DNA from: a virus
Direction: 5' to 3' (one strand)
DNA: 20,926 nt
Virus record (IMG/VR): IMGVR_UViG_3300033064_001703
Coordinates: 1-20,926 of that record
Within the stretch, counting starts at the first letter, position 1. Every line of letters begins with the position of its first letter. The position numbers were made by a program, and so were the translations under genes. A model generated the notes under the pieces. It worked only from the letters and a program-made list of their open reading frames with translations, was not told where the DNA came from and did no database searches. Of the stretch, positions 10,808 through 20,406 are shown piece after piece.

Positions 10808-13537
10808 TTAGACCGTCATCGGATCGATCATCTTTCGACGTGCTCCGTGGGCCTCGGGAGCATCTGTTACTTCGGTATGCCAAGGCGTGCTCCGGATGCG
10901 AACGGCCTTCTCTAAGGCATCGATCCAGTCATCCTTTCCGCGGGGGTAGGCCAAGAGCTGGTCGCGGCCTTCCTCAAACCCTTCAGGTAAATACACCTTC
11001 AGACTAGCGAATAAGGGCTGTAATGACTCGAGCCGAGACCCCTCGCCCTTCTTCTTCTGGGTAGGCTTATCCTTCATGTACACCACCTTGTGGTTCATCA
11101 CGAGGTAGGTCCAGATGTATTCGAACGCGGCCGACACCTCAAGGAGGCCCCTGAATGGTTTTATGACACGGTCGTTCTCCGCAATAGATATCACCACTTG
11201 GTCAGGAGGTAGGCGTCTAAGGACTCCCTCAGTGAGGATATATATATTATCATCCTTGTCAGTGCCCACGTTTACCACCGCCGTACTATCGGCCCCTACC
11301 GCCGTGGATGCCGCGGGGTCAACGCCCGTGGTAATAAGCACAGGAATACGCATGGGGGGTGAAAACTCTTTGCTTCCTCGCTTCTCAACGACCAATATAG
11401 CCTGACCGATCGCGTCGCGCTCGAGCGTACCACGCCACTCCTGAAGATACTCTAGGCGGAATATCTGGTCTTCGTCCCCTATGATCAGCGCCTCCCACTC
11501 CCTGTAGTAGGAACTGAGCATGCCGAGGCTTCTGGCTGTAGATTTCTCTTCCAACAACCTCGTTCGGGTAATATAATTTGGCCACAAGACCCCTTCCTTC
11601 GTGGTCCACTCGCGCGTCGCTGAGTCATACCATGTCGAAGTGTTATCCGTAGCTTGGTTCTTGTACCACAGAACACGCCACCCGGTGGCCTCCTGTAACT
11701 TCACCACCATACACTGAGTATTTATCGGGGTGCCGATAACAATAACGCGGCCCGTGCGGATATTGAGCGACGGAGTTATGGCCTGTAGTAACCACTTCCG
11801 GTTCGCATCCATGGAACCTTCTGTCTTCGTATTGTTCTCATCCTCTGGATCATCGCAATTGTGAGAAAGGCCAATAGGGGACGAATAGGTGCCACCCTCA
11901 GTGGTAATCGGTGAAACGATGGCGCTTCCGTCTGGTTGAGCATCTTTCACCTGTCTCCATGTATGGCCCTCCTCGATCATGCATGGGACGATTTTGTACC
12001 TAGTGGTCGGTGCGATGTCATATCCAAGCATATCTACACCGTCCCTCATGTACAAATCATACTTCGGCTGGGTCACGCTCATTCTTGACCCATCAGAAAA
12101 CGTCTCAAACCGGGTGCCCACACCACGCCTTACATACGACGGAATACCAAGCCTTGATAATGCCCGAGACAGTCTGTATAGCCCCTCTTTATTCACCGAC
12201 GTAAGGCGTATGCACGGGCGCACCTCGGTGTTTTTCACCCACCCATCAGCATCTATGTACCCAACGATGAGCTCTTTTAGATATGCCTCCTCCAAGTGAT
12301 AGATCCACTCAGGAGGGTTCTTAATAGAATTACCACCCTTCTGCGTCTTCAGCCAGCGAGCGATGGCGGCGTGCCTAATGATAACATTCGTACACCCCTG
12401 TCGGTCGTCGTAATGAACGGCATGTCCCCACTTTATCCAGAACGCGGATAAACGGTCCATCACAACATCATTAGAGCAGCTCCAAGATACCCTGCTACCC
12501 CCGATAGTGCCGTCGCCAAGCCAAAGCCCATACACCCACCACCACTCGGGGTCATCAAAGAACTCGGGCACAGTCATCTCTTCCTGCGGGCTTACGCCTG
12601 TTACACGGCCCTTATCACACCGGCTTGTGATATCATTCCCACCAGTGAAGGTATGAACAGGCTCCATGTCGGCCGCGCCAACACGGTTGTACACCACGGG
12701 ATCGCCGATCCAGTGATCACTGGTCAGGTCCTGCGCCTCCACCCAATCGGCTTCCCCAAATCTCCAGTGGCGCCGATGGCCCTTTTCACCCTTTGTCCAG
12801 TACTTAACCTTCTTCTTTGCCCAGAACCGGTGTTCGAGTGTCACATGCTCCGCATCAGGAACTCCCGCTACGCGCACGCGGATGACGGGCGCAAGCTTGT
12901 CAGCTTGCCGTTTTCCTATTTTCTCAACAGGGACGAGTCTACCATCAGCACCCCACACGAGGGTTCCCTTTTTGTGACACACGACCGCTGTCGGGCGAAG
13001 GTGAACCTTCTTCAACCCGCGGGCCTGTGTGCCCGTACTAAGCGCTGTGAGGATTGTACCGTCCTTCAGGATAACTTCCGTGCCCGTCCACTTCTTGGCC
13101 GTCTGGTAGCCCCAGTTGCCGAAGGTTTTCCGTAAACCTTTCGAGTAGTCTCCTTCTCCGCCGCTGTCGCCAAGGATCGCCTTTACGGTATCCAGCCGCT
13201 TAATGGCCTCACTGCGCGTCTTGGAGATAAGGACAATGTGCTTCACCGTCTGCTTCGGGGAGCTCGCTCCACCATTCATGAAGCGCCACCGGTCCTCTAA
13301 GAAAATATGCCAGATAATGTACAGACAGGCGGCAACGGACGATTTTGCATGGCCACGAGGTGCCACTACTACCAAGGATCGCTGCCTAAAATCGCGCATG
13401 TGGCGCTCTAAATCATAATGAAACGGCGGCGTACCGGCCGTCATCATCTCTGGAATAAACACTTTGCCCAACATGATAAGGCTGGACGCCACTTGATTTA
13501 AAAACTTCTCCTTGGTATTGATCTGTGGCGCTTCCAT
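10808..13537 (-). CDS. terL: Large terminase subunit precursor interrupted by an intein
   Basis: A 909-residue precursor. The extein parts (1-186 and 561-909) join to a 535-residue terminase, a normal length. The ATPase domain has Walker A APRGHAKSS at 59-67. After splicing, Walker B reads TAVV-CDDPED, and the coupling motif is VIVIGTP at about 598-603. The nuclease domain has TTGVDPA with Asp740 and the C-terminal YPRGKDDWIDALEKAV with Asp869/870/873. Together these are the acidic residues expected of the RNase H-like headful or end-cutting nuclease. Role: ATP-driven DNA packaging into the procapsid through the portal, and genome cutting. ATG 13537 overlaps the stop of the upstream gene (TAATG). 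The C-terminal codons contain copies of the GGAGCAC repeat (HGARRK). The terminase is inactive unless the intein splices, because Walker B is split. Confidence 0.93.
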   Translation of the reverse strand: MEAPQINTKEKFLNQVASSLIMLGKVFIPEMMTAGTPPFHYDLERHMRDFRQRSLVVVAPRGHAKSSVAACLYIIWHIFLEDRWRFMNGGASSPKQTVKHIVLISKTRSEAIKRLDTVKAILGDSGGEGDYSKGLRKTFGNWGYQTAKKWTGTEVILKDGTILTALSTGTQARGLKKVHLRPTAVVCHKKGTLVWGADGRLVPVEKIGKRQADKLAPVIRVRVAGVPDAEHVTLEHRFWAKKKVKYWTKGEKGHRRHWRFGEADWVEAQDLTSDHWIGDPVVYNRVGAADMEPVHTFTGGNDITSRCDKGRVTGVSPQEEMTVPEFFDDPEWWWVYGLWLGDGTIGGSRVSWSCSNDVVMDRLSAFWIKWGHAVHYDDRQGCTNVIIRHAAIARWLKTQKGGNSIKNPPEWIYHLEEAYLKELIVGYIDADGWVKNTEVRPCIRLTSVNKEGLYRLSRALSRLGIPSYVRRGVGTRFETFSDGSRMSVTQPKYDLYMRDGVDMLGYDIAPTTRYKIVPCMIEEGHTWRQVKDAQPDGSAIVSPITTEGGTYSSPIGLSHNCDDPEDENNTKTEGSMDANRKWLLQAITPSLNIRTGRVIVIGTPINTQCMVVKLQEATGWRVLWYKNQATDNTSTWYDSATREWTTKEGVLWPNYITRTRLLEEKSTARSLGMLSSYYREWEALIIGDEDQIFRLEYLQEWRGTLERDAIGQAILVVEKRGSKEFSPPMRIPVLITTGVDPAASTAVGADSTAVVNVGTDKDDNIYILTEGVLRRLPPDQVVISIAENDRVIKPFRGLLEVSAAFEYIWTYLVMNHKVVYMKDKPTQKKKGEGSRLESLQPLFASLKVYLPEGFEEGRDQLLAYPRGKDDWIDALEKAVRIRSTPWHTEVTDAPEAHGARRKMIDPMTV
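11858..12979 (-). mobile_element. LAGLIDADG-endonuclease intein within terL Walker B
   Basis: Residues 187-560 of the precursor (374 residues) form a complete bifunctional intein. It starts with Cys187 (CHKKGTLVWGADGRLVPVEK, block A) and has a block B T..H pair in HVTLEHRFW (Thr233, His236). It ends in Ser-His-Asn (558-560) and is followed by +1 Cys561, the residues needed for class 1 splicing. Two dodecapeptide motifs of a LAGLIDADG homing endonuclease are intact: VYGLWLGDGTI (Asp342) and LIVGYIDADGW (Asp431). The endonuclease therefore looks active. The element is inserted between VV and CDDPED of Walker B, an essential and conserved site, as expected for homing elements. Confidence 0.92.
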
Positions 13538-17746: not shown

Positions 17747-17884
17747 GTCGTTTTACTTTTTGAAAAAATTTCGGCCGAGTTAAAGAGGGTGCCACGTTAC
17801 GGACCCCGCCGCTCGAATTCGCTTATGGGGGGACCTCCTCACGTTGAAAAAGCCACCCATCCCCCCCCCTCGTGCGCCGTGAGC

Positions 17885-17910
17885 TGTCAACTACGGAACC
17901 GTGCTTGACA
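17885..17910. promoter_or_regulatory. 26-bp near-perfect dyad, operator candidate
   Basis: The half-sites TGTCAA..ACGG and CCGT..TTGACA are arranged around a central AA. Ten of twelve opposed positions pair perfectly, one is a G-T wobble and one is a C-C mismatch. Each arm carries a TTGACA hexamer pointing outwards. It could be a repressor operator covering divergent -35 boxes. Confidence 0.55.
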
Positions 17911-18002
17911 AGACGCCCTACACATGCCCATATCGCTGATCTGAGCGACCTGTACCAAGATATCCATGCATCATATCAATAGCTATAGGTGTGCCCGTGT
18001 GG

Positions 18003-18097
18003 CCTAAGTCCTGTATTTACATATACTTAGGTCATGGTGGGGGGTGTGGAGAGGGGTTGAATCATGGTGCCCTAAGTCCTTTATTTACAAACACTTA
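18003..18097. repeat. 27-bp imperfect direct repeat, two copies 68 bp apart
   Basis: Copies start at 18003 and 18071 and share CCTAAGTCCT, TATTTACA and ACTTA with three mismatches over 27 bases. The first copy is also a dyad (CCTAAGT at 18003-18009, ACTTAGG at 18025-18031). This is an iteron- or operator-like arrangement. Confidence 0.65.
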
Positions 18098-18263
18098 CCC
18101 TTTGTATTTCACTCACGGGCGCCGGGGTTGCTACAGTAATGGCCTATTCATGCTGGTCCACTGTGCACCTGATGGTGCATGTGTATGATATTCGAAAAAC
18201 CGGAGGGCCCTATAGGGTATATAAGGGCATATCCCCTCATTATGAGTATATATATATATAGTA

Positions 18264-18368
18264 CATACACTACCTGCATAGCACGCTTAAAAGCGTGGCC
18301 CTTGCTATGTTCGAGGGCGTTATTGGGCTAGTGTATGAATGGGATTCTATATACAGACTCATACACTA
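18264..18368. repeat. CATACACTA motif set with compound hairpin
   Basis: CATACACTA occurs at 18264-18272 and 18360-18368 and inverted at 18329-18337. The last two are part of a perfect 10-bp inverted repeat (TAGTGTATGA and TCATACACTA, 20-base spacer). Between them lies a compound hairpin at 18277-18309: CACGCTT/AAGCGTG inside CATAG/CTATG. A (TA)n tract lies directly upstream. Confidence 0.65.
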
Positions 18369-18623
18369 AACGTTGATTCCAGCGAGTGGGATGGGGTAGG
18401 GTAGTGCATGATGTTTATGTAGGTTTGGAGAAGATACGGGTCTATAGTGCCAGACGTGTAGTAGTAGGTGCACCTAGGCGCCGGTTATGCTTGCCAACAA
18501 TCTTTCAACACCCAGTACGAATTCACACTTTCTATACACACTATCTTATCATTCATGCCTATTTAGTGGCAGGCGCAGGAAATGTCGCCCATCACAACGC
18601 TAACATATATAAGGTACACGACA

Positions 18624-18842
18624 ATGACACGCAAAGAATTGATAAACATGATCGCGGACGCACTAGATGAAAGAGCAGAAATGGGCTCATCGGGAAGAGA
18701 AGATTGGAGCATCTTCGATACCGGCTTCAAAGTTGAAACGTGGTCAGACGTCCCAGTTACCGTAACAGACGCAAGCACTGGTGAGTTTTTCACTATTACA
18801 GTCAGTAAGTCTAAAAATTTAGACAAGCGTTTTAGTAAATAA
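18624..18842 (+). CDS. Hypothetical 72-residue protein, first rightward gene
   Basis: I choose ATG 18624 (MTRKELINMIADALDERAEM) because it follows the AGGTACACGACA leader seen before other genes here. A frame open further upstream lacks a site. The protein has an N-terminal helix followed by beta strands (FKVETWSDVPVTVTDASTGE, FFTITVSKSK). The end resembles that of the 81-residue protein at 19262 (F.ITV..KK), so the two may be distant paralogues. No family is recognised. It is followed 12 bases later by the first hammerhead ribozyme. Confidence 0.65.
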   Translation: MTRKELINMIADALDERAEMGSSGREDWSIFDTGFKVETWSDVPVTVTDASTGEFFTITVSKSKNLDKRFSK

Positions 18843-18854
18843 TCACTGCCCTTC

Positions 18855-18905
18855 GTCGAAACGCCTTCGGGCGTCCGTGGGGTTGCCGTCCCACGCTGAA
18901 GAGAC
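18855..18905 (+). ncRNA. Hammerhead ribozyme 1 (open-stem-II permutation)
   Basis: All core positions are present in the order expected when stem II is open. GTC (18855-18857) joins GAA and A (18858-18861). Stem III is ACGCC/GGCGT closed by a TTCG tetraloop (18861-18874). The cleavage nucleotide is C18875, after U, giving a GUC site. Stem I is CGTGGG/CCCACG (18876-18881 with 18890-18895), followed by CTGAAGA (18896-18902). Stem II is GTC/GAC and can be extended outward by TGCC/GGCA (18846-18849 with 18907-18910) across an internal loop. Predicted self-cleavage falls between 18875 and 18876. It lies between two genes on the transcribed strand. Confidence 0.85.
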
Positions 18906-18932
18906 AGGCATTCATTTAAACAGGTTAACGAC

Positions 18933-19265
18933 ATGACCAGATTCAAAACCCTTCGCGGCTTCCGTTCGGACAGCTACGAGACCGCCCCGTACTGTGGGTA
19001 TCATCACGAGACCGGCCGCGACTTCTGGGGCCTCGTCACATGGCACTACCAAGAGGGCGAGGGCTCGAGCGCGTTCCTTGGCGACCGTCTGCCCGGTATC
19101 ATCTGGGGATACGGCGACGGCTCATGGCGCTTCACCCCGGGGTCCTACGTCTTCCGCGCTCGTCGCGTGGTCAGCTTTCTAAGTGACGTACTGGACCGCC
19201 CTGCGGGACGCTTACCGCTATCCAAGATCGTCGAGATCGCCCGTATCGTGTGGGGTGTCAAATGA
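18933..19265 (+). CDS. Hypothetical 110-residue protein
   Basis: Starts at ATG 18933 after the leader CAGGTTAACGACATG. It is Gly-, Trp- and Arg-rich (YCGYHHETGRDFWGLVTWHY, IIWGYGDGSWRFTPGSYVFR) with a helical end (RLPLSKIVEIARIVWGVK). No family is recognised. Its GC content is clearly higher than that of the genes at 18624 and 19543, which suggests mosaic origin. The stop overlaps the next ATG (ATGA), so it is coupled to the 81-residue gene. The ribozyme upstream would place a new 5' end about 57 bases before this start. Confidence 0.65.
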   Translation: MTRFKTLRGFRSDSYETAPYCGYHHETGRDFWGLVTWHYQEGEGSSAFLGDRLPGIIWGYGDGSWRFTPGSYVFRARRVVSFLSDVLDRPAGRLPLSKIVEIARIVWGVK

Positions 19266-19507
19266 AAAATTTCAACAAGCTCACCAAGATCCAGAAGGGC
19301 CGCGAGGCCATCTTCTCCAGCATCATGGACGGCCTAGAAGTGTCCGACTACAGGATCGGAGACGGGGGGGCCTACACCGACGAGATGCAACACATGGCCA
19401 ACGGCCTCGCCTACGGCAGTCTATGGTCGAACTATGGCCGCACCGAGTTGGTCCGGGTCGAGCTCGACGGCATGACGTTCGAGATCACTGTAACGCGCAA
19501 GAAATAA
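19262..19507 (+). CDS. Hypothetical 81-residue protein
   Basis: ATG 19262 overlaps the previous stop (ATGA). A GTG 12 bases upstream is less likely. The protein has a basic helical start (KNFNKLTKIQKGREAIFSSI) and a beta end (LVRVELDGMTFEITVTRKK) similar to the end of the 72-residue protein at 18624. High GC like its partner gene. No family is recognised. After its stop comes AATCACCGCCC, matching the start of the spacer that holds ribozyme 1, but here only a short GC-rich hairpin remains before the next leader. Confidence 0.65.
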   Translation: MKNFNKLTKIQKGREAIFSSIMDGLEVSDYRIGDGGAYTDEMQHMANGLAYGSLWSNYGRTELVRVELDGMTFEITVTRKK

Positions 19508-19542
19508 TCACCGCCCCCCCGGGGGCAAACAGGTACACGACA

Positions 19543-19797
19543 ATGTCACCACAAGCAAAGAATCTTAAAAACACCCTCACCGATCTAGGCATCACTTGCT
19601 TCGGCAGAATGGTATCAGTTAAGACAGAAACCAAACGCATCAAAGACAACGGGATGCCAAACGGTTATTATATCGAGTATGGTTCAGCCGTTGCCGTAAC
19701 AACTCGCTTGACAGACGAGCAGATCACGGGGATCAAAAAACAAAATCCATACGCCAAGATCACGAACGGCGCTGTCGCTTTGATATACTCACACTAA
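19543..19797 (+). CDS. Hypothetical 84-residue protein
   Basis: ATG 19543 follows the recurring leader AGGTACACGACA. The sequence begins MSPQAKNLKNTLTDLGITCF and continues with SVKTETKRIKDNGMPNGYYI and a helical/beta end (LTDEQITGIKKQNPYAKIT, VALIYSH). It is Lys-rich and basic, and lower in GC than the two genes before it. No family is recognised. Ribozyme 2 begins 2 bases after its stop codon. Confidence 0.65.
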   Translation: MSPQAKNLKNTLTDLGITCFGRMVSVKTETKRIKDNGMPNGYYIEYGSAVAVTTRLTDEQITGIKKQNPYAKITNGAVALIYSH

Positions 19798-19799
19798 CG

Positions 19800-19851
19800 G
19801 TCGAAACGCCTTCGGGCGTCTATGGGTCAGCCAAGCCCATACTGAAGAGAC
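19800..19851 (+). ncRNA. Hammerhead ribozyme 2 (open-stem-II permutation)
   Basis: This has the same layout as ribozyme 1. GTC (19800-19802) is followed by GAAA, and stem III is ACGCC/GGCGT with a TTCG loop (19806-19819). The cleavage nucleotide is C19820. Stem I is TATGGG/CCCATA (19821-19826 with 19836-19841) around a 9-base loop, followed by CTGAAGA (19842-19848) and GAC (19849-19851), which closes a short 3-bp stem II. Two base pairs of stem I differ from ribozyme 1 with both sides changed (C-G, G-C become T-A, A-T), so pairing is preserved by covariation. Loop I is unrelated. Predicted cleavage is between 19820 and 19821. Confidence 0.83.
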
Positions 19852-19877
19852 GGCAACAACCCCAAAGGTTAACGACA

Positions 19878-20114
19878 ATGACATTCTACGATGCATACTT
19901 GATTACAGACGGTGCCCAGAGCGCCGACCTCACGCAGACATCCGAGGCCGTGGCTATGCTGCTGGCCGCCGGTGTTCATCCATCCACTGGCACGATGAGC
20001 CGCACGTTTCACAACGTGATTGCTGGCGGGTTCGTGATTCGCGGCGAGGGTGTGACTACTCCCACGGTGGACCACGACGCCATCGATGAGTACGAAGACG
20101 CCTGCGACTGGTAA
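19878..20114 (+). CDS. Hypothetical acidic 78-residue protein
   Basis: ATG 19878 follows AAAGGTTAACGACA, the recurring leader, 26 bases after ribozyme 2. The protein is Ala/Thr/Asp-rich and acidic: MTFYDAYLITDGAQSADLTQ, then VAMLLAAGVHPSTGTMSRTF and VDHDAIDEYEDACDW at the end. No family is recognised. The acidic end and small size are compatible with an early host-interaction or anti-defence peptide, but nothing specific supports that. Confidence 0.65.
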   Translation: MTFYDAYLITDGAQSADLTQTSEAVAMLLAAGVHPSTGTMSRTFHNVIAGGFVIRGEGVTTPTVDHDAIDEYEDACDW

Positions 20115-20208
20115 CAGATCACAGCGACACGTAACTGCATTGATGGTCGAAACATCTGCGTGGTGACGGGGAACACCGTGTATCCCCATCGCAAAAAACA
20201 CGGTAATT

Positions 20209-20300
20209 GAACAGGTAGCTCAGATGGTAGAGCCGGCCTATTAGCCCGTTGCAACTGACGGGACGGCGGAAGGTCGCAGGTTCGAGTCCCGCCCTGTTCA
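20209..20300 (+). tRNA. tRNA-like element with abnormal anticodon region
   Basis: The acceptor stem GAACAGG/CCTGTTC (20209-20215, 20293-20299) is perfect. The D arm is GCTC..AGATGGTA..GAGC and the T arm GCAGG-TTCGAGT-CCCGC has one A-C mismatch. A discriminator A is present, but CCA is not encoded. The central part is wrong: 42 bases separate the D stem from the T stem instead of about 23. No canonical 5-bp/7-base anticodon arm fits. The best stem is CCCGT/ACGGG around the 8-base TGCAACTG. It may be a real tRNA with an insertion, a decayed tRNA, or a tRNA-derived attachment site. I do not assign an amino acid. Confidence 0.5.
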
Positions 20301-20406
20301 CAAGGAGTGCCGCGAAAGCGGACCGCCCACAGAGTGGGGCTTTGGCCGGGTGGTTGGCACCTAACAATGCCACGCTCCCCAACTAACATAACTCATGAGG
20401 TATAAC
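20301..20406 (+). other. Structured leader between tRNA-like element and next gene
   Basis: Three short hairpins stand in a row: CCGC-GAAA-GCGG (20310-20321, GNRA tetraloop), CCCAC-AGA-GTGGG (20326-20338) and TGGCA/TGCCA (20355-20359, 20368-20372). No gene is present. This may be a processed leader or the remains of another intergenic RNA. Confidence 0.4.

Follow-up and report, generated by a model that had tools for sequence, protein, structure and literature searches.

Two type II hammerhead ribozymes between small genes of a phage fragment, and the placement of such ribozymes beside upstream stop codons

Results

Judged by its sequence, the virus fragment analysed here (IMG/VR record IMGVR_UViG_3300033064_001703; the whole stretch of 20,926 bases is referred to as the window) holds a real pair of type II hammerhead ribozymes, in a kind of place where such ribozymes are known. 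The ribozyme kind itself is known as well; new are this instance, the correction of its pseudoknot and the measured placement of these ribozymes relative to stop codons.

The structural genes of the fragment (terminase with a LAGLIDADG insert, portal and major head protein) run leftward, and a gene for a single-strand binding protein is found on the same strand. The small ORFs run divergently from them: past a noncoding stretch, the rightward block begins with five ORFs (72, 110, 81, 84 and 78 aa), followed by a tRNA-like gene, a further ORF of 76 aa and the gene of a DNA methyltransferase. The early-type character that had been ascribed to the small genes is a guess. The noncoding region between the divergent gene blocks (17750-18600) is long and is a possible promoter or origin region; it contains an AT-rich tract near 18250 as well as a 31-nt direct repeat (17999 and 18067; 87%). 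The ORF for the terminase large subunit (909 aa, 10808-13537, − strand) contains an intein-like insert with a LAGLIDADG match at residues 422-472. Over residues 189-495, the terminase is similar to part of the ribonucleotide reductases of Lactococcus phages, a part that is probably an intein as well. In the tRNA-like gene (20209-20301, + strand), the acceptor, D and T arms are good, but the D and T arms are 42 nt apart and a canonical anticodon arm is missing; ARAGORN reports a four-base 'ttag' anticodon, and a pattern search for this layout gave no match in viral contigs. Searches with the 110-aa protein (in viral contigs) and with the portal protein confirmed no relatives and yielded no close phage relative that could reveal conservation at the ribozyme locus.

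Copy 1 extends from stem II to the pseudoknot tail at 18855-18910 (+ strand) and scores 53.7 bits (E = 2.9e-13) with an independent covariance model. Read 5' to 3' on the + strand, it consists of GUC GAA ACGCC-UUCG-GGCGU C, the predicted cut, and CGUGGG-GUUGCCGU-CCCACG CUGAAGA GAC A GGCA. Stem II is formed by GUC 18855-18857 and GAC 18903-18905 (3 bp, open), stem III by ACGCC 18861-18865 and GGCGU 18870-18874 with a UUCG loop, and stem I by CGUGGG 18876-18881 and CCCACG 18890-18895; the core comprises GAA 18858-18860 and CUGAAGA 18896-18902. By the hammerhead rule, cleavage is predicted after C17 (18875) of GGCGUC, that is at 18875/18876 on the + strand, the same position at which the original prediction had placed the cut of the common transcript. 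A complete core, with all conserved core bases and stems I and III, had also been claimed for this site and is confirmed here, as is its position between two small genes, on their coding strand. These are the 72-aa ORF (18624-18842, + strand; no family match), whose TAA stop at 18840-18842 lies 14 nt before C18857, and the 110-aa ORF (18933-19265, + strand), the first gene 3' of the ribozyme, whose ATG is 57 nt away from the cut site.

The same spacer element is indeed repeated, as had been proposed. Copy 2 was found by the core pattern at 19800-19854 (+ strand; 51.7 bits, E = 1.1e-12 with the independent model), with a cut predicted at 19820/19821. It lies between the 84-aa ORF (19543-19797, + strand), whose TAA stop at 19795-19797 is 4 nt before C19802, and the 78-aa ORF (19878-20114, + strand), and its leader from cut site to ATG is again 57 nt long. 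In both copies GAA, CUGANGA, the A-U first pair of stem III and H17 at the cut site are all present, and both sequence reading and alignment to the covariance model give loop-closed stems I and III and an open stem II. The copies are identical in stem III, stem II (GUC/GAC) and the core. In stem I, the first two pairs differ on both sides (C-G to U-A and G-C to A-U), and from these two compensatory changes it follows that selection has maintained the fold. The piece between the predicted cuts (18876-19820) is 945 nt long and carries the 110-, 81- and 84-aa genes, the second of which (19262-19507, + strand) has no PHROG or Pfam match.

Within this piece, the 81-aa and 84-aa ORFs are separated by a ribozyme-free spacer (19508-19542, + strand) that was recognised by its repeats: TCACYGCCC follows the stop and AAACAGGTNMACGACA precedes the start, both ends being shared with the spacer of copy 1, and a G+C hairpin lies in the middle. 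A ribosome-binding leader, AGGTTAACGACA, is seen in the sequence at the start of the 110-aa ORF (18922-18933, + strand), its last A being the A of the ATG. The leader sequence AGGTNMACGACA is present in four exact copies, one within 18922-18933 and the others at 18612, 19531 and 19866, and each precedes a small ORF.

The tail GGCA (18907-18910) of copy 1 had been assigned to an outer extension of stem II with TGCC 18847-18850. The inner GTC/GAC stem of that assignment stands; the outer pairing is probably not an extension of stem II. Among 131 family members, such outer pairing is seen in 32 vs 36 expected, and the candidate was rejected for this lack of enrichment. Loop I and the 3' tail, on the other hand, are complementary over at least 4 pairs in 48 of the 131 members vs 17 (maximum 27) with shuffled partners. 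Moreover, the upstream TGCC sits in the post-stop sequence TCACYGCCC, which recurs after the 81-aa gene where there is no ribozyme, and is therefore probably not part of the ribozyme. Folding energy alone cannot choose between the two pairings. From the sequence and the enrichment in the family, the GGCA of copy 1 is more likely to pair with UGCC of loop I (18884-18887), which gives a predicted pseudoknot at 18884-18910 (+ strand). It comprises 4 pairs in copy 1 and 3 (GCC/GGC) in copy 2; at least 4 are common but not universal in type II hammerheads. The loop I-tail pseudoknot of these ribozymes was described by Perreault et al. 2011, and in a tested relative trimming it from 6 to 4 bp decreased the rate about 20-fold (both PMC3088659).

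The family assignment is based on several searches. The pattern CGAAAC-GTC-CTGANGAG occurs at exactly two places in the window, the two copies, and in none of 100 dinucleotide shuffles. The Rfam model RF02276 (Hammerhead_II), which the original prediction had suggested as a check, did match copy 1, with 27.5 bits and an E value of 0.071 when the whole window was searched and of 0.0061 for 1.8 kb; copy 2 was missing from its match list in the searches of the window and of the 1.8 kb. Both copies fall short of the gathering score of 37 bits, which is the curators' cut-off and not a structural feature. A stricter core pattern gave at least 120 stretches in viral contigs and 116 in bacterial and archaeal genomes. 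The independent covariance model was built from an alignment of 67 diverse type II hammerheads, collected from phages and genomes by the core pattern with the window excluded. It gives the two copies the scores named above, with 10.2 bits for the next-best match in the window. Stems and pseudoknot covary in the 67 relatives (256 double-changed cells vs 77 in shuffles), with strong covariation of stems I and II; stem III tells nothing in this respect, since the search pattern had fixed it. Minimum-free-energy z-scores were about 0, which carries no information when a ribozyme is small and has a pseudoknot. ViennaRNA, a program that ignores the pseudoknot and the core contacts, favours alternative folds by up to 5 kcal/mol, and its favoured fold of copy 1 pairs CUUCG (18851-18855) with the catalytic GAAG.

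Scores below the Rfam gathering score and short pseudoknots are what one could expect of inactive relics or of a chance resemblance. However, there are two copies with compensatory changes, and the E values by the independent model are near 1e-12, so that we regard this explanation as very unlikely. Anatomy, family membership, location and strand of both ribozymes are established by these data.

Two further candidates were rejected. A third hammerhead at 20138-20200 has GGTCGAAAC in common with copy 2, but it has no CTGANGA and no model score. This spacer before the tRNA-like gene (+ strand) opens like the 5' end of copy 2 with GGTCGAAAC, continues with other hairpins and is devoid of the catalytic 3' half; a relic or a chance likeness is possible. 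Hammerheads of the other order gave one pattern match in the window vs 0.55 expected, which is chance level.

To see how such ribozymes are placed relative to genes, 274 type II hammerheads were considered, comprising the collected loci (among the matches listed) and the window. An ORF counted as the upstream gene if it was on the same strand, had 40 codons or more and stopped at most 70 nt upstream; ORFs were called mechanically. Such a stop was found for 260 of the 274 ribozymes. In 186 (68%) the gap between this stop and the first C of CGAAAC is 0-5 nt, with 1 or 2 nt as the commonest values. Among the matches listed, the share at 0-5 nt is 72% in viral contigs and 50% in genomes, compared with 2.5% and 2.7%, respectively, for random positions. 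Terminator-like hairpins in the same loci have 5-6% at this distance, their median gap being 28 nt. Leaders, counted from the cut to the start codon, have a median length of 55 nt (quartiles 50-62), and only three of the 274 have an ORF that enters the ribozyme and ends at the TGA of CUGANGA without another upstream stop. Single ORF calls may err, yet the excess at 0-5 nt is too large to be affected. Copy 2 (4 nt) fits the rule, copy 1 (14 nt) follows it more loosely. From the stop distances, the leader lengths and the rarity of ORFs running into the ribozyme, it follows that these spacers contain little beyond a ribozyme and a ribosome-binding site, with the ribozyme outside the translated sequence and as close to it as possible. 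The rule was not found stated in the literature searched, a body of non-subscription papers, nor in the passages of PMC3088659 that were consulted.

Discussion

It is probable that the phage transcript processes itself co-transcriptionally into gene-length mRNAs with hairpin-capped ends. According to this model, two type II hammerheads occupy spacers in an operon that runs rightward and consists of small phage genes. Each would fold on the nascent RNA, with the hairpins of stems I and III, the 3-bp stem II and the loop I-tail pseudoknot, and would then cleave itself 3' of C17. The stem III hairpin would become the 3' end of the upstream message and bear a 2',3'-cyclic phosphate at a distance of 33 nt (copy 1) or 23 nt (copy 2) from the stop codon; the 5'-OH of the downstream message would lie inside the stem I hairpin, with 57 nt between it and the start codon. 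A long transcript would be split in this way into gene-length or few-gene mRNAs, for example the piece 18876-19820, and the message ends would be capped against exonucleases and 5'-monophosphate-dependent decay. In bacterial RNA decay, such ends are expected to slow 3' exonucleases and the 5'-monophosphate-stimulated RNase E. That the RNA is cut, and that this alters expression or stability, is inferred. The model is favoured by the core pattern and the independent model scores, by the compensatory changes and the covariation in the family, and by the location of family members in spacers. Against it speak the other folds preferred by ViennaRNA, the shortness of both pseudoknots and the fact that no close relative was found in which the locus is conserved. 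Processing of long phage transcripts was already proposed by Perreault et al. 2011. In that work (PMC3088659), 14 of 18 tested consensus hammerheads were active, and tandem phage hammerheads cut a native polycistronic RNA of about 2 kb in vitro, the set from A. tumefaciens also in E. coli.

The placement rule suggests another explanation. A ribosome terminating on the upstream gene would mask stem II together with GAA and the 5' side of stem III, and cutting would be timed or tuned by translation of that gene. This would agree with the 68% of ribozymes that begin 0-5 nt past a stop, with the excess over random positions and terminator-like hairpins in both collections and with the mere three ORFs that run in; in copy 1, a terminating ribosome could also reach CUUCG (18851-18855), the strand for which misfolding onto the core is predicted. 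However, plain compaction of the spacer would equally set the ribozyme beside the stop, and copy 1 is 14 nt away from it. For the window, gating by translation is thus an unlikely but tenable reading. It is likewise unlikely that phage type II hammerheads in general abut the upstream stop because terminating ribosomes gate their folding, which would make them translation-coupled and not constitutive cutters. Among the rivals, this is the one most deserving a test. The measured stop-codon rule makes the vague idea of 'processing' specific enough for testing, and two copies with 57-nt leaders together with a nearby ribozyme-free spacer of like design are a compact test case.

It could also be argued that ribozyme and conserved leader serve mainly as short common sequences for the exchange of small genes by recombination, cleavage being secondary. 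The four exact AGGTNMACGACA leaders and the likeness of the ribozyme-free spacer and the copy-1 spacer at both ends would be in line with this. The same is true for arrays elsewhere, in which the copies are of one lineage and yet flank unrelated genes (only 2 homologous-neighbour pairs in 172 within-locus pairs); copies of one lineage within one genome despite unrelated neighbour genes would be expected of a ribozyme that spreads as a spacer module. On the other hand, the most-shared parts are short, and stem I diverges fast with its pairing kept, which fits selection on structure and not on sequence identity. We consider a primary role as recombination boundary to be quite unlikely.

Both copies have the stem II GUC/GAC, and the 3' half of copy 1 could in principle pair via stem II with the 5' half of copy 2; the two ends of the 945-nt mRNA would then be held together or ligated, and a clamped or circular message would result. 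At first sight, the family data would agree: the second pair of stem II is shared by about 90% of ribozymes of the same genome, also in array pairs whose stem I has fully diverged, vs 28% of unrelated ones. However, ribozymes from different phages with homologous flanking genes and low stem I similarity share this pair equally often (80-92%). Since such ribozymes cannot be distinguished from array copies in this respect, the sharing reflects slow change of the second pair and not cross-copy pairing, and the latter was rejected. In addition, Perreault et al. 2011 sought spliced or circular products and found none (PMC3088659). We regard a clamped or circular RNA as very unlikely.

Comparison with known systems

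The repeated use of a hammerhead as spacer between tiny genes had been called striking, but the pattern was known before. Perreault et al. 2011 reported type II hammerheads in clusters flanking single genes in prophages (PMC3088659), and de la Pena 2017 also describes hammerhead spacers between small phage genes (PMC6155905). In the latter, the role of hammerheads in phages is called an open question.

Six type II hammerheads between small ORFs were seen on an Archaeoglobales-binned contig (L138, − strand; G001 contig C31). Five of them are near-identical, and each of these lies directly past an apparent stop codon and has a loop I-tail pseudoknot of about 9 bp. In two other contigs (L121 and L122), a 22-mer in common with copy 2 adjoins an upstream CTGANGAG, an arrangement like that of a hammerhead of another permutation with an apparently open stem I. 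Because of this recurrence, the stem III module may be shared across hammerhead types.

The closest known systems are the (pro)phage type II hammerheads (RF02276; Perreault et al. 2011, PMC3088659). The window copies have the same permutation, core, 3-bp stem II and loop I-3' tail pseudoknot, they lie between phage genes with several ribozymes per genome flanking short gene blocks, and transcript processing is the proposed role in both cases. They differ in that they score under the Rfam gathering threshold, that the pseudoknot of copy 2 has only 3 bp and that the phage of the window is without close relatives in the collections searched. The hammerhead of the haloarchaeal viruses HF1/HF2, upstream of a helicase gene, is likewise viral and closely precedes a start codon. 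There, a transcript 5' end within 3 nt of the cut site is evidence of cutting of a viral mRNA leader in vivo; unlike the window copies, it has a variant core and is 13 nt away from the start codon (PMC3088659). As to the prokaryotic hammerheads that flank ORFs for small, non-conserved proteins (PMC6155905), the ORFs of the window are likewise small and without family match, and there is no essential difference.
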